This document shows positions 4,377 through 36,218 of a stretch of DNA of 64,000 bases, piece by piece (the stretch's first letter is position 1; each line of letters opens with the position of its first letter). The stretch is taken from NCBI RefSeq assembly GCF_003634575.1, contig NZ_RBLJ01000002.1:744001-808000 (forward strand), given 5' to 3'. This stretch comes from Photorhabdus asymbiotica (GTDB lineage Bacteria > Pseudomonadota > Gammaproteobacteria > Enterobacterales > Enterobacteriaceae). The notes beneath the pieces were generated by a model. That model saw only the letters and a program-made list of their open reading frames with translations. It ran no database searches and was not told where the DNA came from. Made by a program: the position numbers and the translations under genes.

Positions 4377-4389
4377 GTATCAAGATAAA

Positions 4390-10091: not shown

Positions 10092-10253
10092 GTGAAACAT
10101 CTCTTACTTAAGTGTCCTCGTTCCCTAAAAGTCGGATACAAACTCTGACCTGGGAACTTTATCGTTAATCTCGTTTAATCGAACAATTAGGCAATATTTT
10201 AATCAAATATAAAATATATTAATTTATACAATTTTTTCGATATATCGAAAAAT

Positions 10254-10283
10254 ACAATATGATATAACTTTATTTTATATATA
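10254..10283. repeat. Leader/promoter repeat, copy 2
   Basis: Second copy of the 30-bp AT-rich block of 9018-9047, within the 270-bp gap upstream of the permease gene. The gap also has a perfect short palindrome TTTTTCGATATATCGAAAAA (10232-10251). Together they suggest a separate promoter for the permease-ATPase pair. Confidence 0.6.
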
Positions 10284-10361
10284 TAAACTACCAGCTTGCC
10301 ATATGATATTTAAAAAATTACATATAAATATATTCTTATATTCACACAATAGGGAAAATAT

Positions 10362-11063: not shown

Positions 11064-11805
11064 AAAAAGTTTTAACGGGCAAAAGGTCCTGCAAAATATC
11101 GATCTTACCATTGAGGAAGGCAGCCTTACCGCATTAATCGGTCCATCAGGAAGCGGCAAAAGCACGCTGTTACGCTGTATCAACTTATTAGAAATTCCTC
11201 AGTCCGGGAAGCTGCAAATTGGTAATGAAAGTATGACCTTCATCGGTAAAGAACGAATTGCTCACAAGGACGTACAACGAATCCGTCAGCAAACCGGCAT
11301 GGTGTTTCAAAACTTCCAGCTTTTTCCTCACCTCACCGTCATTGAAAACATTATGGAAGGGTTGATCTGGGTTCAAAAATGGTCACATGAACAGGCAAAA
11401 AAACGGGCGCTCGAACTGCTGGAAAAGGTGGGTATGTTACATAAAGCTGATGTCTTGCCAGCCACTCTATCCGGTGGTCAGCAGCAGCGTGTCGCGATTG
11501 CCAGGGCACTGGCACCTTCGCCCAAAGTGTTATTATGCGACGAGCCAACTTCCGCGCTTGATCCAGAATTATCCCAGGAAGTTGTCGCCGTATTAAAGCA
11601 GTTAGCTAAAGAAGGAACCACTATGTTAATGGCCACCCATGATCTGCGTCTGGCTGCTAATCTTGCTCACAACGTCATATTTTTAGAATCTGGGGAAATT
11701 ATCGAATCGGGAACATCGAAAACGATTTTTACCCGGGCCCTTAAACAACGTACTGTGGAATTTGTTTCAACCTTAACCAATACCTTACCGGATTGGGAAA
11801 TATAA
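11041..11805 (+). CDS. Cystine/polar amino acid ABC transporter ATP-binding protein
   Basis: 254 residues, GlnQ/HisP/YecC (TcyN) class ATPase. Walker A GPSGSGKST (about 33-41), Q-loop MVFQNFQLFPH, signature LSGGQQQRVAIARA, Walker B VLLCDEPTSALDPE, H-loop ATHDL. It couples ATP hydrolysis to the permease just upstream, whose gene it overlaps. Confidence 0.94.
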   Translation: MIQLNGIEKSFNGQKVLQNIDLTIEEGSLTALIGPSGSGKSTLLRCINLLEIPQSGKLQIGNESMTFIGKERIAHKDVQRIRQQTGMVFQNFQLFPHLTVIENIMEGLIWVQKWSHEQAKKRALELLEKVGMLHKADVLPATLSGGQQQRVAIARALAPSPKVLLCDEPTSALDPELSQEVVAVLKQLAKEGTTMLMATHDLRLAANLAHNVIFLESGEIIESGTSKTIFTRALKQRTVEFVSTLTNTLPDWEI

Positions 11806-11897
11806 TCCACCGTTAAAAATACCTTGTCATCATTGCTCCTTACATCAAATCAATGATGATCAAATAAATAAATTTTTTGACAGATTGGAGAAACAAA

Positions 11898-12671
11898 ATG
11901 AAAGTATTCTTTACCGCATTATTAGCTGGTGTCATTCAATTCGGCATTGTACATTCTGCCAGTGCAGAATCTAGCCTTGATAAGATTAAATCAACGGGTG
12001 TATTCAAAATCGCTACCGAAGGAACCTATCCACCCTTTACCTATCACGATGCTTCAGGAACTTTAACCGGTTTTGATGTTGAGATTGGCCGCGAAATTGC
12101 CCATCGCCTAAATGTCAAAGCAGAGTTCACTGAAGGAAAATGGGATGGGCTTATTGCCGGCCTGGATGCTAAACGCTACGACGCTGTAATCAATCAAGTC
12201 GCTATTACGCCAGAACGCAAGAAAAAATATGACTTTTCCGCTCCGTATATTATCTCCAAGGCCGTACTTATCACCCGCCAAAACAATGACAGTATCAAGA
12301 CGTTTAGTGACCTTAAAGGTAAAACATCAAGCCATAGCTTAACCAGCAACTATGCGCAGTTAGCAAAACGTTTTGGTGCTGAAATCGTCCCTACCGAAGG
12401 ATTTAATCAGGCAATCGATCTGGTTGCTACAGGCAGGGCTGATGCAACCATCAATGATAATTTGTCCTATCTGGATTTTAAAAAACACAAACCTAATGCG
12501 CCGGTAAAAGTTGTCGCATCTGAACCCAATGGCGATCAGGTCGGTATTCTAATCCGTAAAGGCGAACCAGAATTACAAGCGGCTATCGATAAGGCACTCA
12601 CCGACATTAAAGCTGATGGCACCTATCTGCAAATTTCTACCAAGTATTTCGGTACCGACGTTTCCAAATAA
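11898..12671 (+). CDS. Cystine/polar amino acid ABC transporter, periplasmic binding protein 2
   Basis: 257 residues, SBP family 3, paralogue of the protein at 9318. I chose the ATG at 11898 (MKVFFTALLAG), which follows TTGGAG by a good spacing and gives the same length as the paralogue; an earlier in-frame start at 11877 would spoil the signal peptide. Cleavage is likely after residue 23 (ASA before ESSLDKIK). It keeps TEGTYPPFTYHD and the TPERKKKYDFS segment and has the TYPPF form seen in TcyJ. Placed 92 nt after the ATPase, it probably shares the transporter with binding protein 1. Confidence 0.9.
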   Translation: MKVFFTALLAGVIQFGIVHSASAESSLDKIKSTGVFKIATEGTYPPFTYHDASGTLTGFDVEIGREIAHRLNVKAEFTEGKWDGLIAGLDAKRYDAVINQVAITPERKKKYDFSAPYIISKAVLITRQNNDSIKTFSDLKGKTSSHSLTSNYAQLAKRFGAEIVPTEGFNQAIDLVATGRADATINDNLSYLDFKKHKPNAPVKVVASEPNGDQVGILIRKGEPELQAAIDKALTDIKADGTYLQISTKYFGTDVSK

Positions 12672-12762
12672 GAAAGTGACCCTCTTTTCTTTCAAGAGAT
12701 GGTTTCTCTTAATACCTGGAATATTGTACAGTACTTAAAATATGGGTAGCGAAGGTCTGACA

Positions 12763-12811
12763 CAGAATTCTGAACACATTCAACCATGCAACGGAAGCGT
12801 TCAGAATTCTG
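12763..12811. repeat. 13-bp perfect inverted repeat, each arm itself palindromic
   Basis: CAGAATTCTGAAC (12763-12775) and GTTCAGAATTCTG (12799-12811) are exact complements with a 23-nt spacer. Each arm includes the 10-bp palindrome CAGAATTCTG. No T run follows at once, so it is more like a protein-binding pair or a cruciform than a terminator. Confidence 0.7.
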
Positions 12812-13146
12812 CACTTCTGTTTATTAAATTACGCTAAATTTTACCACTGATAATATTTCATTTTATCCTTATTTAAAATATATTCCTTTTGGAAAGTATT
12901 GTCTGATGAAATTATTGATATTCTCATTTATCCCTCTTCCCCATAGAAGATAGAATTTAAGGCTATAAATTGAATCTGGTTGCTCACCTAATTCAAGTTC
13001 ACAGAAACATTATCAGATAAAACAGTACAGTATCTGAATTCACCGCCTGAATTATGTTTAATAAATTATTATTTATTTCCAGACGGGATTAAAACAATCT
13101 GTCACAGAAAAATACCATTAATATTTCCCTTAAAATATTGAAACCG

Positions 13147-16934: not shown

Positions 16935-17951
16935 ATGAATCCATTATATCAACGTAATTTCCTAAGGTTACTTGATTTTTCTTCAACAGAAATCCACTCC
17001 TTTCTAAAACTGGCTGCTGAATTAAAATCGACCAAAAAATCTGGTGCTGAAAAAGCTTTATTAACAGGCAAAAATATTGTGTTGATCTTTGAAAAAGATT
17101 CCACCCGTACCCGCTGTTCATTTGAAGTAGCTGCTTTTGACCAGGGGGCAAATATCACTTACCTCAGCTCTAGTGGCAGCCAGATTGGCCACAAAGAATC
17201 AATTAAAGATACCGCTCGTATACTTGGTCGCATGTATGACGGTATTCAATATCGCGGCTATGCTCAAAAAGTCGTCGAAACACTAGCAGAACACGCCGGC
17301 ATCCCCGTATGGAATGGCCTGACAAATGAGTTTCATCCTACCCAGTTACTGGCAGATTTACTCACTATCCAAGAACATCAACCAGAGAAACCGCTATCAG
17401 AAATCAAATTTGCCTATCTGGGTGATGCCCGTAACAATATGGGGAATAGTATGCTAGAAGCCGCTGCATTGATCGGTATGGATGTTCGACTAGTTGCTCC
17501 TAAAGAATACTGGCCAGATGCAACACTGGTTGCTGAATGCCAAAAGCTGACTGAAAAAATCGGTGGTAAAATTACGCTAACTGAAAATATCGCCGAGGGT
17601 GTTAAAGATGCTGATTTTCTTTATACCGATGTCTGGGTTTCGATGGGAGAGCCAAAAGAAATTTGGCAACAGCGAATTAGTCTACTGAAACCTTATCAGG
17701 TCAATATGGATGTAGTGAAAATGACAGGTAATTCACAGGTAAAATTCCTGCACTGCTTGCCTGCATTCCATGATGAAGAAACAGCATTAGGTAAGCAACT
17801 GGCGGCCGAGTTTGATATGTATGGCGGACTGGAAGTCACCAATGAAGTTTTTGAGTCAAAACACAGTATTGTATTTGATCAGGCAGAAAATCGCCTACAT
17901 ACCATTAAAGCAGTAATGGTAGCAACACTGGCAAAGGATTTGAAAATCTGA
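16935..17951 (+). CDS. argI: Ornithine carbamoyltransferase
   Basis: 338 residues (E. coli ArgI 334). Makes citrulline from ornithine and carbamoyl phosphate in arginine synthesis; cytosolic trimer. Carbamoyl-phosphate site STRTR at 56-60, FHPTQ motif, ornithine/catalytic HCLPAFHD near the C-terminus. The GAGGT SD stands before the ATG. Repressed by ArgR through the upstream boxes. Confidence 0.97.
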
Positions 17952-18262: not shown

Positions 18263-19186
18263 ATGGCTAATCCGTTATATCGCAAACATATCATCTCGAT
18301 AAATGATTTGAACCGCGAAGAGCTGGAATTGGTATTGCAAACTGCCGCCGCCCTGAAAACCAGACCACAGCCTGAATTGCTGAAACACAAGGTTATCGCC
18401 AGTTGTTTCTTTGAAGCATCTACTCGTACTCGCCTCTCTTTCGAAACAGCAATTCACCGTCTTGGTGCTTCAGTAGTCGGTTTTTCGGATAGTAGTAATA
18501 CTTCCCTGGGAAAGAAAGGCGAAACACTGGCAGATACTATTTCCGTTATCAGCCAATATGTTGACGCTATCGTGATACGCCATCCACAAGAAGGTGCACC
18601 GCGTCTGGCTTCTGAATTTTCCGGTCATACTCCGATTATCAATGCTGGTGACGGTGCAAATCAGCATCCGACTCAAACCTTGCTGGATCTATTCACTATT
18701 CAGGAAACCCAGCAACGGCTGGATAGTCTGAATATCGCCATGGTTGGTGACCTAAAATATGGTCGCACCGTTCATTCTCTGTCACAAGCACTGGCGAAAT
18801 TTAATGGCAACCATTTTTATTTTATCGCCCCAGAAGCACTAGCAATGCCAAATCATATTCTGCATATGCTGAACGAAAAAGGGGCTACTTATAGTCTGCA
18901 TACCAATATTGAAGAAGTCTTACCCGAGTTGGATATTCTTTACATGACTCGCGTACAAAAAGAACGCCTTGATCCATCCGAATACGCCAATGTAAAAGCA
19001 CAATTTGTCCTACGTGCTACTGATTTAACTGGAGCAAAAGAGAACCTCAAAATTCTGCATCCGCTACCACGTATTGATGAGATTACTGTTGATGTAGATA
19101 AAACACCTTATGCTTATTATTTCCAACAGGCAGAAAATGGTATTTATGCTCGTCAAGCACTATTATCTTTAGTTTTAAGTGAATGA
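18263..19186 (+). CDS. pyrB: Aspartate carbamoyltransferase catalytic chain
   Basis: 307 residues (E. coli about 311). Makes carbamoyl-aspartate from aspartate and carbamoyl phosphate, the committed pyrimidine step. Carbamoyl-phosphate site STRTR at 53-57, [10 protein letters not shown], and HPLPRIDEI near the C-terminus. Forms the dodecamer with PyrI. Strong GAGGAGAG SD. Controlled by the pyrL attenuator. Confidence 0.97.
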
Positions 19187-20650: not shown

Positions 20651-22789
20651 GTGAAAACTGTTGTGATAAAACGAGATGGTCATCAGGTACCATTTGATGG
20701 AGAGCGTATCAGGGATGCTGTAAAACGGGCCGCCTCTGCTGCTGGTGTCACAGATGATGAATATTGTGCTCAAGTTGCATCCGTAGTGACACAATTAATG
20801 ACTAATCACAGCCAAGTTGATATACGGGATATTCAAAACGCAGTAGAAAATCAATTAATGGCTGGCAACTATAAGCACCTTGCCCGTATCTACATTGAAT
20901 ATCGTCACGACAGAGATATTGCCCGCGAGCTACATAGCCATCTTAATCAGGAAATCCGTGGCTTGGTTGAACAAAGTAATGTTTCCCTACTCAACGAAAA
21001 TGCCAATAAAGACAGTAAAGTTATCCCAACTCAACGCGACCTGCTGGCAGGAATTGTTGCTAAAAATTATGCCAAACAACACATTCTGCCGCGTAACGTA
21101 GTATCAGCTCACGAAAAGGGGGAAATCCACTATCACGATCTCGATTATTCCCCCTTTTTCCCAATGTTTAACTGTATGCTGATTGACCTGAAAAACATGC
21201 TAACCAACGGGTTCAAAATGGGTAATGCTGAGATAGAACCGCCAAAATCTATTGCAACCGCAACGGCGGTAACGGCACAAATTATTGCTCAAGTTGCCAG
21301 CCATATTTATGGCGGTACCACCATCAACCGTATAGATGAAGTATTGGCCCCTTTCGTTAAAGCCAGCTATGAAAAACACTTGGCAATTGCCGAACAGTGG
21401 GATATCAGCGATAAAAAATCTTACGCCGAAGCACGAACAGAAAAAGAGTGTTACGACGCTTTCCAATCACTGGAATATGAAGTTAATACACTGCATACCG
21501 CCAATGGGCAGACTCCTTTTGTCACTTTTGGCTTTGGTTTGGGGCTGTCAAAAGAGTCCCGACTAATCCAGCAATCTATTCTGCGTAACCGCATTGCGGG
21601 TTTGGGTAAGAACCACAAAACAGCGGTATTCCCCAAACTGGTATTTGCTATCCGCAATGGTCTAAATCACAAGCTTGGTGATCCTAACTACGATATCAAA
21701 CAATTGGCTCTCGAGTGTGCTAGCAAGCGGATGTATCCTGATATTCTTAACTACGATCAGGTTGTCAAAGTGACAGGCTCCTTTAAAACTCCAATGGGTT
21801 GCCGTAGTTTCCTCAATGTTTATGAAGAAAATGGTGAGCAAATTCATGAAGGACGCAATAATCTGGGAGTTATCAGCTTAAATCTCCCTCGTATTGCTAT
21901 CGAAGCCAAAAGAGATGAAAAATACTTCTGGCAATTGCTAGATAAACGTCTGACATTGGTGAAACAAGCATTGATGACCCGTATCAGTCGTCTGGAAGGG
22001 GTCAAAGCACGAGTTGCTCCAATCCTTTATATGGAAGGTGCCTGCGGGGTTCGCCTGAAAGCTGATGATAATATCGCTGAAATCTTTAAACATGGCCGGG
22101 CTTCTATCTCTCTGGGCTATATTGGCATTCACGAAACCATTAACGCATTGTATGGCGACCAAGTTCATCTATTTGATGATCAACAATTACGTGCAAAAGC
22201 ACTCTCAATTGTTAAACGTCTGCGAGAAGCCACTGATCAATGGAAGAAAGAAACTGGTTATGGTTTCAGCCTATACAGTACACCAAGTGAAAATCTATGT
22301 TACCGTTTCTGCCGCCTTGATACCGCTGAATTTGGTGTTATCAAAGGCGTGACAGACAAAGGCTATTACACCAATAGCTTTCATTTAGACGTTGAAAAGA
22401 AGGTCAATCCTTACGATAAACTGGATTTTGAAGCACCTTATCCACCACTGGCAAATGGCGGTTTTATCTGTTACGGCGAATATCCTAATCTGCAACATAA
22501 TCTGAAAGCATTGGAAGATGTCTGGGATTACAGCTACCTACATGTGCCTTATTACGGAACCAATACTCCCATTGACGAGTGCTATAACTGCGGATTTACG
22601 GGTGAATTCTCCTGTACCAGTAAAGGGTTTACCTGCCCACGTTGCGGCAACCATGAATCTTCAAGAGTATCAGTAACCCGCCGCGTCTGCGGTTATTTGG
22701 GGAGTCCTGATGCTCGCCCATTCAATGTAGGTAAACAAGAAGAAGTAAAACGCAGGGTAAAACACCTGAAAAATGGGCAGTTAGGCTAA
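20651..22789 (+). CDS. nrdD: Anaerobic ribonucleoside-triphosphate reductase NrdD
   Basis: 712 residues (class III RNR, E. coli also 712). Reduces NTPs to dNTPs without oxygen using a glycyl radical and formate. N-terminal ATP-cone (about 3-95), ten-stranded barrel, zinc cysteines starting C644-x2-C647 and CPRC, and the radical glycine G681 in RVCGYLG. Activated by NrdG, encoded 17 nt downstream. Start GTG at 20651 follows AAGGAG. Confidence 0.97.
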   Translation: MKTVVIKRDGHQVPFDGERIRDAVKRAASAAGVTDDEYCAQVASVVTQLMTNHSQVDIRDIQNAVENQLMAGNYKHLARIYIEYRHDRDIARELHSHLNQEIRGLVEQSNVSLLNENANKDSKVIPTQRDLLAGIVAKNYAKQHILPRNVVSAHEKGEIHYHDLDYSPFFPMFNCMLIDLKNMLTNGFKMGNAEIEPPKSIATATAVTAQIIAQVASHIYGGTTINRIDEVLAPFVKASYEKHLAIAEQWDISDKKSYAEARTEKECYDAFQSLEYEVNTLHTANGQTPFVTFGFGLGLSKESRLIQQSILRNRIAGLGKNHKTAVFPKLVFAIRNGLNHKLGDPNYDIKQLALECASKRMYPDILNYDQVVKVTGSFKTPMGCRSFLNVYEENGEQIHEGRNNLGVISLNLPRIAIEAKRDEKYFWQLLDKRLTLVKQALMTRISRLEGVKARVAPILYMEGACGVRLKADDNIAEIFKHGRASISLGYIGIHETINALYGDQVHLFDDQQLRAKALSIVKRLREATDQWKKETGYGFSLYSTPSENLCYRFCRLDTAEFGVIKGVTDKGYYTNSFHLDVEKKVNPYDKLDFEAPYPPLANGGFICYGEYPNLQHNLKALEDVWDYSYLHVPYYGTNTPIDECYNCGFTGEFSCTSKGFTCPRCGNHESSRVSVTRRVCGYLGSPDARPFNVGKQEEVKRRVKHLKNGQLG

Positions 22790-26033: not shown

Positions 26034-26978
26034 ATGGAAAGCCAAGATATTTATTCAAAATCCATTGGTAAGAGGATAAAGCTATGGATGGATGAACGCT
26101 TCCCGCTACAAAACGCGCCACTTTTCTTTATCTTTTATATTATCAGCTATTCCGTAGCTTTTTATTCGATAGGGGAAAAGCCCGTTTTATCATGGGAAAT
26201 CCTGCTCGGTTGCTTAATGTCCTTTTCTTATTTTTTACTATTACGGATATTTGATGAGCATAAAGATTATCAGTTGGATTGTGAACACCACCCACAGCGG
26301 ATATTACAGCGAGGTATTATTACGCTGAAAAATCTACGGGTACTTGGTATCTGCTGTATTGCCCTGCAATTGGGAGGGAGTTTATTTTTAGATCAGGGAA
26401 TTGGCTCAGTCACTTTTGCCTGGCTGTCAGTCTTTATTTGGACCTGTCTGATGGGGAAAGAATTCTTTATCAGTGAATGGTTAAACCAGCACCTCACTTG
26501 GTATGCCATTTCCCATATGTTGGTCATGCCACTCATTATCTGGTGGCTGGTTAACATCGCCAGTCCCAACCTCACACTCACTTTCCCAATATGGATTTTG
26601 ATGGGGTTATGCTTTTTCTCTGGATTTAGTTTTGAAATTACACGCAAATGTAAAGGTCCAGATGAAGAACGCCCGGAAATACCGACCTATTCATCTATTT
26701 TCGGCAAAAAAGGGGCTGTCGCTATTATCGCGGCACTACTCACCATAATGTTAGTGTTACAAATTTGGCTCATTAACATCACCACTGATGACATAGCATT
26801 ATGGGCAGTAATTATCTTGGTAGTTTGTTATGCATTGTGTCTGTGGCAATTGGGTAAATTTCTCCGCCACCCCACCATTCAAAATCGCAAACGCGATGAA
26901 GCTGTCGTGGGAATATTTATGGTTCTGGGTTATTCAGTTTGCGCTGCCAGTATTTTAATAAAGCTTGGGTTTGCTTAA
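26034..26978 (+). CDS. UbiA-superfamily prenyltransferase-like membrane protein
   Basis: 314 residues, about nine membrane helices. First aspartate motif D74-x3-D78-x3-D82 (RIFDEHKDYQLD), aligned with NxxxDxxxD of UbiA, followed by HPQRILQRG, the counterpart of RPLPSG. A second site is PDEER...TYSSIFG (about 209-224). Members transfer polyprenyl chains from diphosphates to aromatic or other acceptors; archaeal DGGGP synthase also belongs here. The replacement of the first Asn by Asp and the divergent second motif make the acceptor unknown. First gene of the seven-gene operon, 20 nt before the HMG-CoA reductase gene. Confidence 0.75.
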   Translation: MESQDIYSKSIGKRIKLWMDERFPLQNAPLFFIFYIISYSVAFYSIGEKPVLSWEILLGCLMSFSYFLLLRIFDEHKDYQLDCEHHPQRILQRGIITLKNLRVLGICCIALQLGGSLFLDQGIGSVTFAWLSVFIWTCLMGKEFFISEWLNQHLTWYAISHMLVMPLIIWWLVNIASPNLTLTFPIWILMGLCFFSGFSFEITRKCKGPDEERPEIPTYSSIFGKKGAVAIIAALLTIMLVLQIWLINITTDDIALWAVIILVVCYALCLWQLGKFLRHPTIQNRKRDEAVVGIFMVLGYSVCAASILIKLGFA

Positions 26979-26998
26979 GTATTGAAGGAAATATAGTT

Positions 26999-29527
26999 AT
27001 GTTGCAAAAAAATATCCAATCATATGTGAGTAATATCTCAGATAATACCACAACTCATATAGAAAGCTGTGCACTGGGTTCAATTCCAGAATTATCACGT
27101 GACATATTCAGCAATAAACGCCAAGAGGTGTCTGCCGTTCATACAACAGCAGCCCAGGTAAAATTATTACCCCGCCGCCATCTTTATACATATACCGAGG
27201 AAGCCCGGCAAAAACGTCTGGATTATTTGGCAAAACATACCGGGCATGCATTGGAGCATGTAGCAAATACCCATCTGGACGCGACGAAACTAACAAAAAC
27301 TCTTGAGGGATTTATTGGTTCAATAGAAATTCCTGTGGGGATCGCCGGCCCTCTCTTAATAAAGGGACAATACGCTCAAGGGGTATATTATGCACCACTT
27401 GCCACCACGGAAGCCGCTTTAATTGCATCGGTATCCCGTGGCTCCTCAGCCATTATGCAATCAGGGGGTACGACTGCCCGTATGCTCGGCCAACGCATGA
27501 TACGAGCTCCCCGTTTTGAATTCTATAGCGTCTCACATAGCATGATGTTCAGTGATTGGATCAACGAACATATCAGCGAACTACGGTATGAAATTGGACG
27601 TCACTCCAAACATGCACAATTGATGGACATAAAACCACACATCATTGGACGCAGCGTCCATCTGCAATTTATCTACAATACTGCCGCGGCTGCCGGTCAA
27701 AACATGACCACCATCTGCACTTGGTATGCATGTCAATGGATACAACAACAGCTAGCTAAAATGGCGTTTATCCCACTGCGTCATTTTATGATCGATGGTA
27801 ATACATCCAGCGATAAAAAAGTGTCTTATCAACCTTTCATCGAAGGACGTGGAACTCGTGTGGTGGCTGAGGTTTATCTAAATGCTGAATCCTGCCAGCA
27901 GATCTTGAGGGTCACTCCACAACAACTAGTCACGGCTTATCATCATGTCTGCGAGGGAGCCATCGCTTCAGGGATGGTCGGCATAAACATTAATGCAGCA
28001 AATGTTATTGCCGGGATGTTTACCGCTCTAGGTCAGGACATCGCCTGTGTACATGAATCGTCAGTCGCACATTTACACATGACATTAACTGCCGATAACC
28101 GCGTCTATTGCAGTATCACACTGCCTTCATTGATCGTAGGTACAGTCGGCGGTGGTACCTATTTGCCACATCAACGCGAATGCCTGAACATGTTGGGCTG
28201 TACCGATGAAAACGGTACTGCTCGCCTGGCTGAAATCATCGCTAGTTATTGCCTGGCCCTTGATATTTCAACACTATCAGCCATTGCTGCGGATGAGTTC
28301 GCTCAATCGCATGAAAAACTTAGCCGTAACCATCCAGCTCCCACCGGTGGCATTATTCCGCGTACCCCACAAGAGCTTGACCTGTCATTCTTCCAACAAG
28401 CAAATTTTAATCCGGTGTTACAAGGGGCGCACCCGACCACCATCAAACCCAAGTTTTCTGGGGATGATGGACACAGCATGCTGACACATTTGAGCTCAAA
28501 CTATGCGGAACGTTTAATTGGTCTATTTCCCTTTGCGATGACCACATCCGCACAGAGTACTCTGCCAGTGATACTGAAGCTAAAACCATTGGGGAGTGAA
28601 GTCGTTAATATGGTCCTGGATATCGCCAAACACTGTTCCCCTGAGTTGTTTGCCGTTTTTCAGGATTTCGCGCATCAGCTTGAATTTAACCAAAGCCATA
28701 CCCGCGAGCTAGCCATTATGAACCAGCGGGTTCCACGGCTCATGCGCTATATTCCAATTATCTATGGTGTGATTGAAAACGAAGCAACCGGAACCTATGC
28801 CCTGATTGAAGAATTACTTCACGATATGGTGTTAATGAACAATATTAATCTGGAAATACCTTGGGAACAGCATCACTTTGAAGCTGCCATCCGAGGAATT
28901 GCCGATGTTCACGCCATCTGGTTAGGGCAAGAAGAAGAGCTTATGTGGAAATTCCCACAACTGCAAATTTCGAACGCTGACACGGTTTCACAAACGAAAC
29001 CTCTATGGCAAAAACTTGGCAATTTTGTTCACCAAGTGTTCCCGGATTTGTTGACCGCCGAGGAACACCAAGATTTCCAGCACTGGGTAGATAACTCAGC
29101 CATCTGGTGGCAAGAGATCGAACAGATGCCTCGGACACTGATCCATGGTGATTTCAACCCACGTAACATCGCTTTTCGACAGCAGGAAGAAGGATTACGT
29201 TTATGTGCCTGGGATTGGGAGTTGTCTACTTTACATCTGCCACAACGTGACCTTGTCGAACTATTAGCCTTTAGCTTAGACCACCAGCAAATCGATGCAA
29301 ACAGTGTGGCCTATTATATTGAATTACACCGAATTGAACTTGAGCAAAAATCGGGAGTTTCTCTTGATCCGATAAATTGGCATCGCGGCTATGAGCTCGC
29401 GCTACGTGATTTCTGGATGAGAAGAATCCCGCTTTATATGATGGCACATAATGTTATTGGCTACCCATTTATGGAGCGCACGATGAAAACTATCCGATGG
29501 CTTATTTCATTAACGCGGAATCAATAG
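26999..29527 (+). CDS. HMG-CoA reductase fused to an APH-like kinase domain
   Basis: 842 residues from the ATG at 26999 (AAGGAA SD; a 20-codon earlier start at 26939 overlaps the previous gene). Residues about 55-450 are a class I-type HMG-CoA reductase: IPVGIAGPLL, PLATTEAALIAS with catalytic E138, DKK with K273/K274, GQD with D347, VGTVGGGTYLP and H438 in SHEKLSRN. No membrane anchor. Residues about 480-842 look like an aminoglycoside/choline-kinase-type phosphotransferase: VILKLKP (K527/K529), HGDFNPRN (H716, D718, N723) and the metal Asp in WDWE (D739). Expected chemistry is reduction of an HMG-CoA-like thioester and phosphorylation of an alcohol, perhaps the product. I know no such fusion in enterobacteria. 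Confidence 0.85.
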   Translation: MLQKNIQSYVSNISDNTTTHIESCALGSIPELSRDIFSNKRQEVSAVHTTAAQVKLLPRRHLYTYTEEARQKRLDYLAKHTGHALEHVANTHLDATKLTKTLEGFIGSIEIPVGIAGPLLIKGQYAQGVYYAPLATTEAALIASVSRGSSAIMQSGGTTARMLGQRMIRAPRFEFYSVSHSMMFSDWINEHISELRYEIGRHSKHAQLMDIKPHIIGRSVHLQFIYNTAAAAGQNMTTICTWYACQWIQQQLAKMAFIPLRHFMIDGNTSSDKKVSYQPFIEGRGTRVVAEVYLNAESCQQILRVTPQQLVTAYHHVCEGAIASGMVGININAANVIAGMFTALGQDIACVHESSVAHLHMTLTADNRVYCSITLPSLIVGTVGGGTYLPHQRECLNMLGCTDENGTARLAEIIASYCLALDISTLSAIAADEFAQSHEKLSRNHPAPTGGIIPRTPQELDLSFFQQANFNPVLQGAHPTTIKPKFSGDDGHSMLTHLSSNYAERLIGLFPFAMTTSAQSTLPVILKLKPLGSEVVNMVLDIAKHCSPELFAVFQDFAHQLEFNQSHTRELAIMNQRVPRLMRYIPIIYGVIENEATGTYALIEELLHDMVLMNNINLEIPWEQHHFEAAIRGIADVHAIWLGQEEELMWKFPQLQISNADTVSQTKPLWQKLGNFVHQVFPDLLTAEEHQDFQHWVDNSAIWWQEIEQMPRTLIHGDFNPRNIAFRQQEEGLRLCAWDWELSTLHLPQRDLVELLAFSLDHQQIDANSVAYYIELHRIELEQKSGVSLDPINWHRGYELALRDFWMRRIPLYMMAHNVIGYPFMERTMKTIRWLISLTRNQ

Positions 29528-29690
29528 TAAATCGAATTAGGTTACTTAATTTACTCTTCCTCTAATAATAAAGGGTGCAGCAATAGCTTGTAATTCATGC
29601 GTATCTTATTGATCTATTAACCCACAAATATTATGTGCAAATAAGACCATGATATATATACGTGTACTATTGCTGCATTGGTGGAATAAC

Positions 29691-32435
29691 ATGAAATATC
29701 TCTATACTCAAGATAACGCTATTAAATTAGCGGAGCATTCCTTAGGTGGCAAAGCGGCTAATTTATTATGGCTGACACAAAATGGTTTTCCTGTGCCTAA
29801 TTATTGGGTCATCAGCAGCGAGGTGCTAAACAGCTTATTAGCTAACGATACATTTGCGATCAACATCGTGGAACAGTTAGCCGCCGTGCCACATGATATC
29901 AGCCAGGAAAAACTCGACGCTATTGCCGCCCCTTTGCGCCAATGGTTAAAATCACTCCCTCTGCCTGAGGAATTAGAAGAAGAGCTGGCTCTATTGTCAG
30001 AGAATCACCCGGATACGTTTTTTGCTGTTCGCTCATCCGCTATTGGAGAGGACGCCGCCAATGCATCTTTTGCCGGGCAGATGGATAGCTACCTATTTCA
30101 GCGTGGCAAATCCGCACTTGCCGACAGTCTACGAGCTGTGATGGCTTCAGCCTTTAATACCCGCGCGTTACAATATCGCCTACACAAACGACTGCCGATG
30201 GGTAATATCCGTAGCGCAGTCATCATTCAGGACATGGTTGCCGGTGAAGTTTCTGGTGTCATGTTTACCGCACACCCAGTTACCGGCAGCAGGCAACATT
30301 ACTTAATCTCATCCGCTTGGGGCACTGGGGAAGGCGTGGTTTCTGGTGAATGTGATACCGATGAGTTTTCGGTTCATCTCACCATGCCAAAGATCGAACA
30401 CCATATCACACAAAAAGGAACAGCAAGTATCTTCGATACTGCTAACGGCAGCGGTACAGTGACAGTACCTGTTGCGGAGGAAAAACAGTGGGTGCCAACC
30501 TTATCCGATGATGAAATATATGCATTGCGGGATATTGGCAAAAAAATTGCGGCAGCACGTGGTTGCCCACAAGATATCGAGTGGACGGTTCAAGACCATC
30601 AAATATTTATTCTACAGACCCGGCCAATAACCAGATTACCCCGTCTGGATGATAAGAATGAACATCGTATTATCTTCGATAACTCTAATATTCAGGAATC
30701 TTATTGTGGAATAACAACGCCACTAACTTTCTCTTTTGCACGTGCTGGTTATGCCACTGTTTATGAACAGACAATACGTGCATTGGGTTGCTCAGATAAA
30801 CAAGTTAATCAACATCGTTCCATGCTGGAAAATATGCTCGGCTTAATTAAAGGCCGGATCTATTACAACATCAACAATTGGTATAAAGGGCTATTATTAC
30901 TCCCCTCTTTCCAAACTAATAAGAAAGATATGGAAAGAATGATGGGGCTGGAAGATCCCGTCGATTTCATTGAAGATAAAGAGCTTTCATTAGGCGATAA
31001 AATAAAAAGACTGCCCAAAATGGGGTGGGCACTGCTGCGATTGCTATATGCTTTCAGAACGATGGATCAACGAGTAGAGTTGTTTTTAGCACAGTTTAAA
31101 CAGCATGCCGCTGCTATAAAACGAACAGAACTGCATACCTGCAACAGCGGCCAACTGATCGAGAAATTAAAATATCTAGATGAGTACCTGCTACGACGCT
31201 GGACGACGCCAATTCTGAATGACTTCTACGTAATGATGTTTAATGGCCGGGTACACCGGGGGCTAGCTGCTGCTGGCATAGAAAACCCGACGGCATTATT
31301 GGGTGATCTCCTCTCAGGGGATGAAGATATTGAAAGTACCCAACCGACCAAGGTACTGTTAAGGATGTGCCAATATGCGCGCCAGCGTCCTGAATTATGC
31401 ACCCTGCTAACGAACGGCGATGCACGTACTTTGCTAACCCAAGTACGCCAGCTTGATGAACCATTCTACCAACAGTGCATTGATTATATTGAAAAATATG
31501 GCGATCGTACTATGGGTGAACTGAAGCTGGAAACCATTACACTAAAACAAGATCCCAGTTTTCTGTTTCTGATAATAAAAAACTACCTTGCTATCGATAA
31601 CCTCACACCAGAGACGTTATCCAGCCGGGAAAGAAAATTGCGTACTCAGGCAGAAAATACCGCATTTCAGCAAATACGCGAGCGACTTGGCTCCAAACGT
31701 ATGGGCACCTTTAAAAAGAATTTGCAGAAATTGCGCCAGGCAATACGCCACCGGGAAAATATGCGCTTCACCCGGACGCGTATGTTTGGGCTATACCGGG
31801 ATATTTTCATACAACTTGGTCAGGCATATGCACTAGAAGGACTCCTTGCTGAACCCCGCGATATTTTCTATCTGACGCTAGAAGAGATCTACAGCGGCTA
31901 CGAAGGGACAACAGTACAAACCCAACTTAAGCCTTTAGTTGCTATACGCAAACAAGAATATGCCAGCTACGAAACAGAGGATGAACCTGCTCACCACTTT
32001 TTCACTAGAGGTTCACTATATCAACAACAAGATTACAGTTACCCCTACCAAGAGCAACAACTCCCGACCGATAGCAGCGTGCTGCAAGGCATAGGTTGTT
32101 ACCCAGGGCAAGTTGAAACGACTATCCGCTTGATTAAAAACCCACAGGATGAAATGTCATTGGCAGGGCAGATCCTTTGTACCGTGCGTACCGATCCTGG
32201 CTGGGCTCCATTATTCCCTACAGCAGGCGGATTATTAATCGAGCGCGGTTCCACACTCTCACACTCCGCCGTTGTCGCTCGTGAACTTGGGATACCCGCA
32301 ATTGTCGGTATTCCCGCCATTACACAAATTTTGAAAGATGGCGATCGAGTACGCATGGATGGCGCAACAGGGAGCGTTATCCGCTTGCACGACACCACAA
32401 CAGAAGAGCTGACACCAAGGAGTGAACATGTCTGA
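29691..32435 (+). CDS. Rifampin-phosphotransferase-like dikinase (PEP-synthase superfamily)
   Basis: 914 residues from the ATG at 29691 (GGTGGA SD; an ATG at 29649 has none). N-terminal ATP-grasp/PPDK_N domain (1-317): GGKAANL (19-25), FAVRSSAIGED (111-121), SGVMFTAHPVTG, QDIEW and QTRP (309-312). A divergent middle domain (about 320-800) probably binds the acceptor. The C-terminal swivelling domain has the phospho-carrier histidine H858 in TLSHSAVVARELGIPAIVG. The PEP-binding TIM barrel of true PEP synthase is absent; domain order equals rifampin phosphotransferase, which transfers the beta phosphate of ATP to a small alcohol. Here it likely phosphorylates a pathway intermediate. Confidence 0.8.
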   Translation: MKYLYTQDNAIKLAEHSLGGKAANLLWLTQNGFPVPNYWVISSEVLNSLLANDTFAINIVEQLAAVPHDISQEKLDAIAAPLRQWLKSLPLPEELEEELALLSENHPDTFFAVRSSAIGEDAANASFAGQMDSYLFQRGKSALADSLRAVMASAFNTRALQYRLHKRLPMGNIRSAVIIQDMVAGEVSGVMFTAHPVTGSRQHYLISSAWGTGEGVVSGECDTDEFSVHLTMPKIEHHITQKGTASIFDTANGSGTVTVPVAEEKQWVPTLSDDEIYALRDIGKKIAAARGCPQDIEWTVQDHQIFILQTRPITRLPRLDDKNEHRIIFDNSNIQESYCGITTPLTFSFARAGYATVYEQTIRALGCSDKQVNQHRSMLENMLGLIKGRIYYNINNWYKGLLLLPSFQTNKKDMERMMGLEDPVDFIEDKELSLGDKIKRLPKMGWALLRLLYAFRTMDQRVELFLAQFKQHAAAIKRTELHTCNSGQLIEKLKYLDEYLLRRWTTPILNDFYVMMFNGRVHRGLAAAGIENPTALLGDLLSGDEDIESTQPTKVLLRMCQYARQRPELCTLLTNGDARTLLTQVRQLDEPFYQQCIDYIEKYGDRTMGELKLETITLKQDPSFLFLIIKNYLAIDNLTPETLSSRERKLRTQAENTAFQQIRERLGSKRMGTFKKNLQKLRQAIRHRENMRFTRTRMFGLYRDIFIQLGQAYALEGLLAEPRDIFYLTLEEIYSGYEGTTVQTQLKPLVAIRKQEYASYETEDEPAHHFFTRGSLYQQQDYSYPYQEQQLPTDSSVLQGIGCYPGQVETTIRLIKNPQDEMSLAGQILCTVRTDPGWAPLFPTAGGLLIERGSTLSHSAVVARELGIPAIVGIPAITQILKDGDRVRMDGATGSVIRLHDTTTEELTPRSEHV

Positions 32436-33483
32436 CATATTCATGGGAGAATGGTCTCCGACCAATCCACTGCCTAAAGGCTTTCTTGAGCTTCCATCAA
32501 TCATTTACCGCGATTGGCCGCTTTGGCCTGGTGAAGATCAGGAAAAGATACAACAGCAGTTCAGCCTGACCAATCCTTGGTTTAATCACAGTAAAGCTTG
32601 GATTGGTTGTATTCCAGGGAAAACCCGTCTTGCCGGCTTTTTGGTGCCTCATAGCGTTGATGGACAACCTGCCGCATTCTTCGGCTTTTGGGAAACCGAT
32701 CATGACCTGGCAAGCAACACCATGCTGTTTAGCGCCCTGGAACAATGGGCTAAGGAAAATGGTGCGCGCGCGCTCTACGGGCCAATCAACTTTTCAACCT
32801 TCGGGCATTATCGTGTCCGGCTTGATCATTTTGATGTCCCTCCCTTTGAGCATGAACCTTATAATCCTCCTTATTATTCCCTGTTATTAGAAGGGTTGGG
32901 ATTTGGTACCCGTTACCGCTATACCTCGTTATTCAATGACACCCGAGCAATAGCAAACAACTTTCGACAAGATTATCTACGCGCACAAAAACTCCCTGAT
33001 CCCCAAGCAACATTACTGCCGTTAACACCGGAATTATGGATGCAGGAACAAGTTAGGCTCTATTCTTTTATTGACTCGGTATTTGGCGAGAATTTCGCTT
33101 ATACCACGCCATCCTGGCCAACGTTTCAACAATATTGTGGTGAGGAATTTATTAAACCGTTTTGTCGCTATCCTGCGTCATTCCTGGCTAAAACCACCAG
33201 CGGCGAGATTGCTGGGTTAATTCTTAGTCTATCGGTCCTGCAAGAAGGTCAACCCGCAATCGGATTGTTGAAAACTGTGGCCGTCGCACCGCAATACAGA
33301 GGCAGCCGGCTGTATAACACGCTATATGACTCATTTGAGCGGAGCGCCAGCCGCGTTCATCCCCGTTTAGGGGGCGCTCTGATGCGTGAAGATAACAAAT
33401 CATTAAAGACCGCAGAACGGCTCTTCAGTACCCCTACTTCCACCAAACATCAATATGCGCTTTATTACAGGAGGATCGCATGA
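32428..33483 (+). CDS. GNAT-fold acyltransferase-like protein
   Basis: 351 residues from the ATG at 32428 after AAGGAG, overlapping the previous gene by 8 bp. The C-terminal part has the GNAT acyl-CoA loop KTVAVAPQYRGSRLYNTLY (about 274-292). The N-terminal half with ALYGPINFSTFGHYRVRLD and EPYNPPYYSLLLEGLGF resembles uncharacterised GNAT-like proteins often placed beside acyl or lipid enzymes. It may transfer an acyl group supplied by the adjacent AMP ligase. The acceptor is unknown. Confidence 0.65.
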   Translation: MSDIFMGEWSPTNPLPKGFLELPSIIYRDWPLWPGEDQEKIQQQFSLTNPWFNHSKAWIGCIPGKTRLAGFLVPHSVDGQPAAFFGFWETDHDLASNTMLFSALEQWAKENGARALYGPINFSTFGHYRVRLDHFDVPPFEHEPYNPPYYSLLLEGLGFGTRYRYTSLFNDTRAIANNFRQDYLRAQKLPDPQATLLPLTPELWMQEQVRLYSFIDSVFGENFAYTTPSWPTFQQYCGEEFIKPFCRYPASFLAKTTSGEIAGLILSLSVLQEGQPAIGLLKTVAVAPQYRGSRLYNTLYDSFERSASRVHPRLGGALMREDNKSLKTAERLFSTPTSTKHQYALYYRRIA

Positions 33484-35066
33484 CAAATATTTGTCAGCCA
33501 ATTGTCGATGCAGCCCAAAAACATCCTGAACATTTAGCCCTGCAAGCGCCACATCCACTGGATAACGGCTGTAGTTTAAGTTTTCGGGACTTCTTTTCTC
33601 ATGCGTCCCATTTCCAGAGTCTGTTAACTCAAGCTGGATTCGTGGCCGGTGATCGCTTGTTAGTCATTGTTCAGCCTGGCCTGATACTTTACCCATTACT
33701 TATCGCCATTTTAGGATTGGGACTCGTTCCGGTTATGCTTGAGCGCGGGCTTTCTAAAAAGCAATTTAGAAAGATACTGCGTCACAGTAAATTATCAGCA
33801 GTGATCACCCAACCTACATTAGGAAAATTCTGGTTTCTGATCCCCGAACTGTGGCGACTGCGTCGTTTTGTCATTGGACAACGTATCTGGGGCATGAAAG
33901 TGCTGGAAACCCCCAGCCAACATTTACCGCTAAATAGTTTTATCTGCCGTGATTTACCACCTGATACGACAGGGTTAATTACCTTTACCTCGGGTTCCAC
34001 CGGCATGCCCAAAGGTGCAAACCGCACCCATGACAGCCTGTTAGCACAACTTTACGCTATAAAGGCGCTTTTTCCCGAAGAAAAGAATGAGATTGACCTG
34101 CACAGTTTTCCCGTTATGGTGCTGCATTCATTGTGCTGCGGTAACGGCAGTATTCTGCCAAACTTTGACTTTGCCCATCCCGCAACCGTCGATCCGCAAA
34201 AAATCGTTAAGCAATTGCAAGATAAAGGCATCACATGTCTCAGCGGTGCCCCTGCCTATATGAACAAGGTCACTAACTATGCCAGAAACAACAAGTTGTC
34301 ATTCCCCAATGTACGGACGGTTATCGTAGGTGGTGCGCCTGCCAACAAGTCACTGCTCGAAAACTGTCTGGCCGTTTTCCCACATGCACGGCATTTAGTC
34401 GTCTATGGCTCTACCGAAGTCGAACCAATCAGTACAGTCGAAATGTCAATTCAGTTAAACCAATGGGCAACACATGATGGCTATCTGGTCGGAAAACCGG
34501 TTACACAAGCAGAAATATGTATCCGGGAGATAACCACCAATCCCCAGCAAATTACTCCACTCACCACCGGTAATGTCGGTGAAATCCTGGTTGCTGGACC
34601 TCATGTACTTAAAGACTATATTGATAATCCTCAAGCAACGAAAGAAAACAAACTTCCACGAAAACAGGGAGGTATCTGGCACTGTACCGGTGACGTTGGC
34701 TACATAGACGCCACAGAACAACTTTGGTTGCTTGGGCGGGTAAAAGACAAAGTAGTGTTAGATGATGGGCGAATTATCCATCCCTATATGGTAGAAAAAA
34801 GAATCAATGAACTCCCCGATGTCACTCGGAGCGCATTCGTGTTGCATCCTTTGGGAGGAGCCGCTCTAATACTGGAAAGCACTACCACACCGGCAGATTT
34901 ACCCGTCATTTTAGACGAACTGAATATTACGTTAGTTACCCGTCTTTATTATATCAATCCTATCCCTGTCGACATTCGTCATAACAGCAAAATAAACCGC
35001 ATTGAGCTGATAAATATGCTCAGGAAAGGCCAATTATCCTCCATTGCATACAAGGAAAAATTATGA
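33480..35066 (+). CDS. AMP-binding acyl ligase, OleC-like
   Basis: 528 residues, ANL superfamily. P-loop TFTSGSTGMPKGA (168-180), A5 YGSTEVEP, A7 TGDVGYID, A8 LLGRVKDKVV, and a C-terminal lysine region VDIRHNSKINRIEL that resembles OleC-type enzymes, which close beta-hydroxy acids to beta-lactones; ordinary acyl-CoA or acyl-AMP ligase activity is the alternative. Overlaps both neighbours by 4 bp (ATGA type), so translation is coupled. The likely substrate is a hydroxylated or branched acid made upstream. Confidence 0.8.
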   Translation: MTNICQPIVDAAQKHPEHLALQAPHPLDNGCSLSFRDFFSHASHFQSLLTQAGFVAGDRLLVIVQPGLILYPLLIAILGLGLVPVMLERGLSKKQFRKILRHSKLSAVITQPTLGKFWFLIPELWRLRRFVIGQRIWGMKVLETPSQHLPLNSFICRDLPPDTTGLITFTSGSTGMPKGANRTHDSLLAQLYAIKALFPEEKNEIDLHSFPVMVLHSLCCGNGSILPNFDFAHPATVDPQKIVKQLQDKGITCLSGAPAYMNKVTNYARNNKLSFPNVRTVIVGGAPANKSLLENCLAVFPHARHLVVYGSTEVEPISTVEMSIQLNQWATHDGYLVGKPVTQAEICIREITTNPQQITPLTTGNVGEILVAGPHVLKDYIDNPQATKENKLPRKQGGIWHCTGDVGYIDATEQLWLLGRVKDKVVLDDGRIIHPYMVEKRINELPDVTRSAFVLHPLGGAALILESTTTPADLPVILDELNITLVTRLYYINPIPVDIRHNSKINRIELINMLRKGQLSSIAYKEKL

Positions 35067-35686
35067 ACAATAATCATTTTATTATCCAATTAAACAAAGC
35101 AGACTATATTACTATTGGTGGAGCGGTATTTAGCGCTCTGGCTGTAGCCGCAGCGTTACAACATTGGTATTACTTAGCTATTGCGTTTTTATATCTTGCC
35201 ATGCTTGGTGACGCGCTCGATGGCATTCTCGCCAGAAATTTAGATATTGTTCGCCCGTTTGGTCGTTATCTTGATGGATTTATGGATCAACTTATTTACT
35301 TGATCTCTCCAGCCATTATTCTCTACCTTTCCGGTTATCAATCTTGGTATTCCCTGTTCATTATCTTAATGATAATTAGCGGTTGTCTGCGATTATCTGT
35401 ATTTAATGAAGTCGGGAATATTCAGAATGAAAATCAGCTCTCCTATCTTGGTATGCCTGTATTCTGGAGCTTATTTATTATCAGTGGTTACGCTTTGGTA
35501 AACCTGGTAATCGAGCCGTGGTTAAGCCATTTCTTACTGACATTAGCGCTCCTTACATTCAGTATCGCCATGCTATGGGATCGCCCGTTTTATAAGTTCA
35601 AGAGTCTCAATACTATCATCAGTACAACACTTGCAGGGTTTGTTTTATTTACCGGTCTTCATTTCTGGAGTCTTTATGCTCAATAG
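35063..35686 (+). CDS. CDP-alcohol phosphatidyltransferase (PssA-like)
   Basis: 207 residues, about six membrane helices. Complete signature D50-x2-D53-G54-x2-A57-R58-x8-G67-x3-D71-x3-D75 (GDALDGILARNLD...GRYLDGFMD). CLRLSVFN after it resembles LRLARFN of phosphatidylserine/archaetidylserine synthases. The family swaps CMP on a CDP-activated lipid for an alcohol such as serine, inositol or glycerol phosphate. The next gene is a CarS-like enzyme that would make the CDP-lipid, so the two form a pair. Confidence 0.88.
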   Translation: MNNNHFIIQLNKADYITIGGAVFSALAVAAALQHWYYLAIAFLYLAMLGDALDGILARNLDIVRPFGRYLDGFMDQLIYLISPAIILYLSGYQSWYSLFIILMIISGCLRLSVFNEVGNIQNENQLSYLGMPVFWSLFIISGYALVNLVIEPWLSHFLLTLALLTFSIAMLWDRPFYKFKSLNTIISTTLAGFVLFTGLHFWSLYAQ

Positions 35687-36218
35687 TTTTTATCACGGAT
35701 GGATTCTAATGATCCCCATCATCCTTGGTGGCTGTTTACATATGGTGATTGTGACGAAAAACTATTTTGCCCGCTGGGCTATCCCAATACATCAACGTTA
35801 TTTCGGCCGTAACAAAACCTGGCGCGGTTTTATTACTGTACCCATCGTTACCGCGCTATCTTCACTATTGTGGTTAGTTCTCGACACCGGAACACAAGAC
35901 ACGACTATTCCCCAGACTATTTCCTCCTGCTTATTTACCGGTTTTCTGGCAGGTTTCGGCTATGTTATTTTCGAACTACCAAACTCCTGGCTAAAAAGGA
36001 GGCTCGGCGCACCACCGGGGCAACACCCAGAGAAAAATAAACGATTGTTTATTTTATTCGATCAACTTGATTCCGCTATTGGTGTCACAATAACCTATTT
36101 TATTTATCTTAATCTTACTTATATCGATGCACTTTTCTTTTTCCTCTGTTTTTTAATCAGTGCCTTTGTTGTTAAAAATATACTATTTTTGCTTTCGCTG
36201 AAGAAAACGAGATTTTAG
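35676..36218 (+). CDS. CarS-like CDP-archaeol synthase family protein (DUF46)
   Basis: 180 residues from the ATG at 35676 (TGGAG SD), overlapping the previous gene by 11 bp; about five membrane helices. Carries N46-K-T-W-R-G51, the KR of SWLKRRLG (about 104-111) and DQLD (129-132), the core signature of CarS, which transfers CMP from CTP to an ether lipid phosphate in archaea. Bacterial CdsA is longer and different. It should activate the lipid used by the preceding phosphatidyltransferase. Last gene of the operon. Confidence 0.82.
   Translation: MLNSFYHGWILMIPIILGGCLHMVIVTKNYFARWAIPIHQRYFGRNKTWRGFITVPIVTALSSLLWLVLDTGTQDTTIPQTISSCLFTGFLAGFGYVIFELPNSWLKRRLGAPPGQHPEKNKRLFILFDQLDSAIGVTITYFIYLNLTYIDALFFFLCFLISAFVVKNILFLLSLKKTRF

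Follow-up and report, generated by a model that had tools for sequence, protein, structure and literature searches.

A conserved seven-gene operon of Photorhabdus asymbiotica as a probable pathway for an undescribed envelope lipid

Gene content, conservation and distribution of the operon

The 5.1-Mb genome of Photorhabdus asymbiotica (assembly GCF_003634575.1) carries, within the 64,000-nucleotide stretch analysed here (contig NZ_RBLJ01000002.1, positions 744,001 to 808,000; hereafter the window), seven open reading frames (ORFs) that lie together on the plus strand at window positions 26034-36218. The initial annotation of this DNA described them as a one-strand operon combining a 3-hydroxy-3-methylglutaryl-CoA (HMG-CoA) reductase (HMGR) with enzymes of archaeal-lipid type, and both the ORFs and their Pfam families (UbiA; HMG-CoA_red with APH; PPDK_N with PEP-utilizers; GNAT; AMP-binding; CDP-OH_P_transf; CarS-like) are as it claimed. 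The genes are as follows.

26034..26978, +, UbiA-family prenyltransferase; 314 aa; Pfam UbiA; best PDB match of the profile, digeranylgeranylglyceryl phosphate (DGGGP) synthase 6m31
26999..29527, +, probable FcrA-like (HMGR-derived) acyl-CoA reductase fused to an APH-type kinase; 842 aa from ATG 26999, the ORF being open from TTG 26939; reductase domain about 27185-28333 and kinase domain about 28436-29524, both on the + strand
29649..32435, +, PPDK/PEP-synthase-like dikinase or ligase; 928 aa; ATP-grasp and phospho-His domains (TLSHSAVVAREL)
32422..33483, +, GNAT acyltransferase; 353 aa; full-length homologue of E. coli YghO
33480..35066, +, ANL-superfamily acyl-AMP ligase; 528 aa; PRK09274 family, 549 bits against a cut-off of 478
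35063..35686, +, CDP-alcohol phosphotransferase (PssA/archaetidylserine-synthase-like); 207 aa; Pfam match and active-site motif
35676..36218, +, CarS-like CTP:lipid-phosphate cytidylyltransferase; 180 aa from ATG 35676, the ORF being open from TTG 35631

The gap between genes 1 and 2 is 20 bp, with the start of gene 2 taken at ATG 26999, and that between genes 2 and 3 is 121 bp, so that a second promoter ahead of gene 3 is possible. Overlaps between the last five genes, which had been put at 4-11 bp, are indeed present, and measure 14 bp for dikinase/GNAT (8 bp if the GNAT gene starts at ATG 32428), 4 bp for GNAT/ligase, 4 bp for ligase/PssA and 11 bp for PssA/CarS (CarS ATG at 35676). Scans for promoter-like sites (19 observed, 28.0 expected from shuffles) and terminator-like sites (14 observed, 9.7 expected) were uninformative about the operon.

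The operon is a real, intact functional unit under strong purifying selection. Its gene set and order recur in genomes G014, G046 and G067, with 59, 46 and 40% identity of the HMGR-kinase protein, respectively, and the complete seven-gene set was found in 12/12 Photorhabdus loci of a genome scan, which argues against a chance assembly. The ratio of non-synonymous to synonymous substitution (dN/dS), measured against three other Photorhabdus loci, lies between 0.04 and 0.15 for all seven genes, the sole value outside this range being 0.30 for CarS against L029; a comparison ORF close to the operon (20651-22789), which we take to be nrdD and thus a housekeeping gene, gave 0.08-0.09.

To define the distribution of the operon, a genome collection was scanned with two dikinase peptide patterns and the best 80 of 103 confirmed stretches were retained, which makes the resulting distribution a lower bound that is biased towards close relatives. 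Together with three further loci (L015-L017) and a Roseinatronobacter plasmid locus (L019) these make up the 84 loci tabulated here; 71 of them are non-Photorhabdus loci once 12 Photorhabdus loci and one duplicate (L062) are set aside. The operon had been described as that of an enterobacterium, but it is not special to such a host, as 13 of the 80 scan loci belong to Photorhabdus or Limnobaculum and the remainder to other bacteria. The four core genes (UbiA, dikinase, GNAT and ligase) occur together in loci from six phyla by record title, namely Pseudomonadota, Bacteroidota, Myxococcota, Hydrogenedentota, Spirochaetota and Actinomycetota, some of these loci being in metagenome-assembled genomes. 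The comparison of neighbourhoods that had been proposed uncovered related gene sets in distant bacteria. The HMGR-kinase gene was present in 12/12 genus genomes examined (the present one included), and outside the genus one other member of the family, G014, also had it; across the order it is rare, with three of 394 genomes in an even sample, again including this one, positive at E <= 1e-100, a figure obtained with the positive genus mates G001-G011 and G014 absent from the matching rows, presumably not having been drawn.

A quick dikinase tree was built from 73 rows, comprising the window, two of the 12 Photorhabdus loci and the other loci with a dikinase ORF of at least 750 aa. The closest named relative of the window in this tree is Photorhabdus australis (96% identity), and the Photorhabdus/Limnobaculum branch is nested inside a Pseudomonadales/Oceanospirillales-type clade, a placement which suggests, from this one tree, that the operon was gained horizontally in Photorhabdus/Limnobaculum.

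In G014 and G046, some of the genes show up as two separate ORFs. In Limnobaculum allomyrinae (L015/L062), UbiA (5702-6643 of L015) and the dikinase (9134-11894) are each split in two ORFs, as is UbiA in L016 (7668-8593); these splits in L015 and L016 may reflect frameshifts, pseudogenes or sequencing errors. The plasmid locus L019 (Roseinatronobacter sp. S2, NZ_CP121116) carries UbiA, dikinase, DUF3419, GNAT and ligase genes, a 439-aa protein without a family and, at the record edge, a partial FcrA-like gene; the 439-aa gene was considered as a hidden kinase and rejected, since it showed no similarity. A distant dikinase also occurs on a Streptomyces clavuligerus plasmid (L020), near an AfsA-related protein, an isoprenylcysteine methyltransferase-like gene and a UbiA-profile match.

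The reductase domain and the mevalonate question

The N-terminal domain of gene 2 matches PF00368 with 381 bits, and the initial annotation had it supplying mevalonate. Class-I HMGR holds HMG via, among other residues, Ser684 and Lys735 (human numbering). Residues were compared in this numbering, with the alignment anchored on His866, across 51 distinct locus sequences (own genome included; matches of less than 330 residues and identical copies dropped; the gene of L018, described below, outside the count). The catalytic residues Glu559, Lys691, Asp767 and His866 are kept in the window and in 50/51 sequences, the exception (L042) being a split ORF. At the substrate-binding positions all 51 sequences depart from the canonical enzyme: position 684 is Asp or Glu, Lys735 is gone and Leu862 has become Phe, the window having Asp, Val and Phe at the three sites. 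Two reference HMGR chains carry Ser, Lys and Leu there, and five other HMGR-like genes of the order all lack the lysine, with Ser684 kept in two of them and Trp (four) or Phe (one) at position 862.

Such a pattern has been described by Grossi et al. 2025 (PMC11948995) for FcrA. This HMGR homologue turns long-chain acyl-CoA, of C14 or more, into fatty alcohol; it does not act on HMG-CoA and is insensitive to simvastatin at 10 uM. In FcrA the catalytic residues are kept, Ser684 is acidic (Glu in N. pharaonis), the lysine (printed as Lys795, here taken to be Lys735) gives way to a generally small residue and Leu862 to a bulky one (PMC11948995). The domain studied here is like FcrA in belonging to the class-I HMGR family, in its intact catalytic residues and in having the same three HMG-binding positions changed, and unlike it in its C-terminal APH kinase fusion and its setting in a lipid head-group operon; the main text of the FcrA paper mentions neither Photorhabdus nor a kinase. 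We conclude from this signature that the domain is probably an FcrA-like fatty acyl-CoA reductase rather than an HMGR.

The content of the genome agrees with this assignment. No HMG-CoA synthase was matched in the genome and the best mevalonate kinase candidate scored 44.6 bits against a cut-off of 163, both in searches that gave signal in control genomes, and Dxs, an enzyme of the methylerythritol phosphate (MEP) route, is present with 1017 bits. Mevalonate is therefore a very unlikely product. The wider idea that HMGR-made mevalonate is a building block of an archaeal-type or prenylated lipid can draw on the PF00368 match and on the co-occurrence of UbiA, CarS and a CDP-alcohol transferase as in archaea, with a UbiA profile closest in the PDB to DGGGP synthase; it has to contend with the altered pocket in 51/51 sequences, with a score of 297 bits for the canonical HMGR model TIGR00533, whose equivalog cut-off is 442, with the missing or weak mevalonate enzymes and with the nature of the only candidate for an archaeal-type synthase (see below). 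The mevalonate route was rejected on these pocket residues and this genome content, and we regard its use in such a lipid as highly improbable.

FcrA has been published as a wax-ester enzyme (PMC11948995), which raises the alternative that the domain feeds wax-ester storage while the remaining genes are unrelated passengers. The order of the genes is kept across large evolutionary distances and the domain is fused to the kinase, both of which speak against passengers and make this account scarcely credible; a search for WS/DGAT found no match in the genome, by a method that gave no signal in any of 14 controls and is thus uninformative. The authors of the FcrA study note that the enzyme must regularly serve pathways besides wax esters and suggest ether lipids (PMC11948995).

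The genome has a second HMGR-like gene (L018, G000:C1:86000-105500; 8975-10264 of that stretch, minus strand), which also deviates from the canonical HMG-binding residues. It lies between genes for biotin-dependent carboxylases; an MmgE/PrpD gene is near, and the stretch also contains two ORFs of at least 1496 aa.

Chain, acyl and head-group enzymes

The D-x3-D-x3-D and E-x2-RK-x6-E motifs of the UbiA enzyme are invariant across 35 aligned sequences, window included, chosen from 60 relatives and the window. Its profile has three matches in the PDB, the best of which is the remote one to archaeal DGGGP synthase 6m31 (E 1.6e-8), and no model named DGGGP synthase is among its NCBIfam matches. The genome holds two polyprenyl synthase genes, which we presume to be ispA and ispB, so farnesyl and octaprenyl diphosphate would be the ordinary donors for such an enzyme. 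Further downstream, the CDP-alcohol transferase contains the complete active-site motif of its family, D-x2-DG-x2-AR-x8-G-x3-D-x3-D.

The initial annotation compared UbiA, CarS and the CDP-alcohol transferase to the late steps of archaeal ether-lipid synthesis, an analogy that stands in part. In the archaeal ether phospholipid pathway, a UbiA-family DGGGP synthase acts together with CarS and archaetidylserine synthase (review PMC9385802); the window likewise unites the three families, and its UbiA profile is closest in the PDB to the archaeal enzyme. At the level of curated function PssA and CarS fall short, as the equivalog cut-offs for PssA, archaetidylserine synthase and CDP-archaeol synthase in NCBIfam are all missed (39 against 148 bits for the CarS model; 65 against 200 and 240 bits for the archaetidylserine synthase models), leaving assignments at the level of Pfam family. 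Unlike the archaeal pathway (PMC9385802), the operon also lacks a geranylgeranylglyceryl phosphate (GGGP) synthase and adds FcrA, kinase, dikinase, GNAT and ligase. No glycerol-1-phosphate dehydrogenase is among the seven genes, the genome not having been searched for one.

The sole PcrB-family match in the genome, on another contig, is MoeO5-like (E 6e-23), and was rejected as the missing GGGP synthase because of this likeness and its position among glycosyltransferase, radical-SAM and NUDIX genes. The gene in question (L111, G000:C1:1130000-1149900; 9512-10255, minus strand) lies with radical-SAM, NUDIX, FAD-binding and three glycosyltransferase genes, in what looks like a moenomycin-type phosphoglycolipid cluster.

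The APH kinase domain keeps its H-G/N-D and DWE motifs; the sole solved structure other than HMGR matched by the profile at E <= 0.001 is ACAD11 (3e-5). The dikinase retains its ATP-grasp and phospho-histidine parts and is matched best by PRK06241.2-4 (2009 bits). The names rifampin-phosphotransferase-like and OleC-like, given to the dikinase and the ligase at the outset, are apt for the family, as are PssA-like and CarS-like, and fall short of curated function in every case. With the prodigiosin ligases PigC and RedH and the rifampin phosphotransferase Rph the dikinase shares PPDK_N and PEP-utiliser domains, and as a candidate for any of the three it was rejected, with scores of 336, 313 and 357 bits against cut-offs of 1300, 1350 and 999. 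OleC itself was similarly rejected for the ligase (223 against 900 bits for the Xanthomonas type, 199 against 850 for the Shewanella type). This ANL ligase ends with an RHNSKI-type motif, which we take to resemble that of the beta-lactone synthetase OleC, and no Ole-type thiolase or hydrolase is found among the other six window genes.

The GNAT gene is a borderline Pfam match (21.0 bits, threshold 20.7) with a confident predicted structure (mean predicted local distance difference test score 93.7). It shares 28% identity over 149 aa with E. coli YghO, and an alignment of its profile to YghO across 344 columns with 98.2% probability indicates full-length homology. We presume the YghO family to include the bacterial ceramide synthase bCerS, in part from the context of two of three relatives inspected among 44 plasmid records. 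In Pseudomonas sp. BYT-5 the relative adjoins an aminotransferase I/II, a phosphopantetheine-binding protein, an epimerase, a fatty acyl-AMP ligase and lptFG; on a Sphingomonas parapaucimobilis plasmid it is near an aminotransferase I/II, an acyl carrier protein (ACP) and lptFG. The BYT-5 locus (L108; pBYT5-2, 3551-13138) is in its own right a sphingolipid-like operon on a plasmid typed as conjugative.

Bacterial sphingolipid operons encode serine palmitoyltransferase (Spt), CerR and bCerS, and the lipids of that pathway are sent to the outer membrane (PMC11087976). The present operon resembles them in placing a YghO-type GNAT beside an acyl-AMP ligase, as in L108, and might on this ground be a sphingolipid variant. 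It differs from the operons of PMC11087976 in having CDP-dependent head-group enzymes instead of genes of Spt, ACP and CerR type: no Spt-type aminotransferase, ACP or CerR-like reductase is among the seven window genes, the genome not having been searched for Spt. Likewise, among unlabelled ORFs of at least 100 aa in the related loci, only the MMPL, DUF3419, 431-aa and LolA-like families recur in more than seven non-Photorhabdus loci. A sphingolipid variant is thus very improbable.

Alternative head-group modules, exporters and the proposed lipid

We tabulated the operon's partners across its relatives, counting a gene anywhere within up to about 22.7 kb if it passed an iterated profile. UbiA, dikinase, GNAT and ligase occur together in 54/71 non-Photorhabdus loci, and every one of these 54 has exactly one head-group module: DUF3419/BtaA-like in 27, PssA and/or CarS in 27, and both in none (the DUF3419 genes of L081 and L095, missed by a first clustering, were found by profile). 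DUF3419 is the family of the betaine-lipid synthase BtaA, which adds a homoserine group to diacylglycerol (PMC10685587); it is absent from the window, and in the sister clusters it occupies the place of the window's CarS and PssA. The APH kinase is present in 49/54 core loci, and the FcrA-like domain in 31/54, of which 26 are among the 27 PssA/CarS loci and five among the 27 DUF3419 loci, one of these five being a fragment at a record end.

Thirteen of the 71 loci have neither module (L037, L049, L056, L057, L061, L064, L071, L072, L073, L074, L083, L086 and L093); these are partly short contigs and partly other clusters, such as L083, and were kept in the denominator. Three of them with record titles Antrihabitans, Rhodococcus and Gordonia (L073, L083 and L086) encode a related dikinase without UbiA or GNAT and perhaps represent a different lipid system with the same dikinase family. 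A large ligase-type protein stands beside the dikinase in L073 (1186 aa) and L083 (1174 aa), and the actinobacterial L083 also has FtsX-type and NAD_binding_4 proteins.

Fusions tie the steps of the proposed pathway together. PssA and CarS are fused in 12 related loci, one of which (L051) has a triple fusion with the ligase, and they are fused in G046 and G067; ligase-PssA (L036), PPDK-ligase (L064) and FcrA-APH fusions were also seen. Export genes form a further layer: an MMPL exporter gene is present in 37/54 core loci, a protein of about 431 aa is added in 14 loci and a LolA-like protein in 12, with starts that by eye resemble signal peptides. Together, the alternative head-group modules, the fusions and the MMPL, 431-aa and LolA-like proteins are consistent with export of a lipid whose polar head can be exchanged.

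On the sequence evidence, we consider it likely that the operon is devoted to making an undescribed envelope lipid, often exported, in which one chain derives from a fatty alcohol, a second is an N-acyl chain and the polar head resembles an amino acid; this supports the earlier proposal of a dedicated lipid whose head group is CDP-activated. We infer the following chemistry, step order and product. From its residue signature and the published enzyme, the FcrA-like domain would convert long-chain acyl-CoA to fatty alcohol with NADPH, making no mevalonate. The fused APH kinase and the PPDK-type dikinase, by the chemistry of their families, may phosphorylate or activate this alcohol or an intermediate, and the UbiA enzyme, whose nearest solved structure is the ether-forming archaeal DGGGP synthase, would attach a hydrophobic chain to the core, with farnesyl or octaprenyl diphosphate or the activated fatty alcohol as donor. 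The CarS-like enzyme is then predicted to form a CDP-lipid, from which the PssA-like enzyme would displace CMP by a polar alcohol, serine or another amino alcohol being the probable choice; in the sister group the head would be a 3-amino-3-carboxypropyl group supplied by the DUF3419/BtaA-like enzyme. An amide-linked fatty acyl chain may be put on by the AMP-ligase together with the YghO/ceramide-synthase-like GNAT. That both head modules might deliver an amino-acid-like group is attractive, because it would offer the amine needed by the GNAT. Outward transport of the product would fall, in many relatives, to an MMPL-type exporter, alone or together with LolA-like proteins and proteins bearing signal peptides; in the Bacteroidota version any alcohol would have to come from elsewhere.

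Several points weigh against this proposal. The GNAT, PssA and CarS assignments depend on weak similarity; the link to YghO is one of homology within the broad GNAT family, which would not prove ceramide synthase activity, and the third plasmid relative inspected, in Chloroflexota, had no sphingolipid genes nearby. Residue 735 of the reductase is not always small, since the window has Val but many relatives have Phe there, and N. pharaonis FcrA has Trp, not Phe, at 862 (PMC11948995). The FcrA-like domain was not seen in the tabulated Bacteroidota loci though the rest of the core stays, so reduction to the alcohol is dispensable in some versions or performed elsewhere. Unrelated ligases or acyltransferases could occasionally have been counted in the locus tallies. 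The exclusivity of the head-group modules is one phylogenetic event and not repeated independent evidence: the switch takes a single change when counted over the 58 rows of the PPDK tree that have a module (15 rows without one were omitted, among them L081 and L095, later found to hold DUF3419), and repeated evolution was rejected on this ground. Finally, Photorhabdus appears to be without the MMPL export module: the operon has no MMPL neighbour in any of the 12 Photorhabdus loci, and a search of the own genome for relatives of the HdN1 MMPL exporter, run without a positive control, found none.

This last point bears on a different reading, in which the operon yields not a structural envelope lipid but a secondary metabolite that is diffusible, such as a prenylated N-acyl compound active against insects or competitors. 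Photorhabdus is rich in secondary-metabolite clusters, no MMPL/LolA module adjoins the operon in G014 either, and the PPDK-type ligases PigC and RedH of prodigiosin pathways are relatives of the dikinase. Against such a role stand the core loci in six phyla, each with a CarS/PssA or BtaA-like module, the MMPL genes in more than half of them, the presence of the operon in every Photorhabdus locus and dN/dS values about as low as that of the neighbouring presumed housekeeping gene. A secondary metabolite is hence an unlikely product, albeit one to be kept in mind, and an envelope lipid remains our preferred reading.

A more specific version of the envelope lipid would have the fatty alcohol converted by kinase and dikinase to a pseudo-prenyl phosphate or diphosphate, ether-linked by the DGGGP-synthase-like UbiA, given a phospho-amino-alcohol head (CarS/PssA) or a homoserine-ether head (DUF3419) and furnished with an amide-linked acyl chain. 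We put this forward as a doubtful, speculative scheme; if true, it would define a new bacterial lipid class, a fatty-acid-based mirror of the archaeal ether-lipid pathway with exchangeable heads in several phyla.

Searches of the open-access literature aimed at the gene set and at some individual families found no description of this combination, in keeping with the initial annotation; PMC12419801 and PMC11334938 deal with other systems. Each of the enzyme families is already known, the gene set appears to be undescribed and no Pfam or NCBIfam match name fits the pathway; for these reasons we rate it as a variant of bacterial envelope-lipid operons, whose novelty lies in the combination of families, and see a genuine possibility that its product belongs to a new class of lipid. 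Elsewhere in the window, two carbamoyltransferase genes (OTCace families; 16935-17951 and 18263-19186) lie near each other on one strand.

If the proposal is right, a lipid class has been overlooked in diverse bacteria, among them Photorhabdus, Marinobacter, Thalassolituus, Hymenobacter and Pedobacter, and the annotation as HMG-CoA reductase is wrong for many genes. The two types of head group would then amount to a natural experiment on the exchange of polar heads in membrane lipids, and the set of UbiA, CarS and PssA would inform the question of how the archaeal and bacterial sides of the lipid divide can be bridged.

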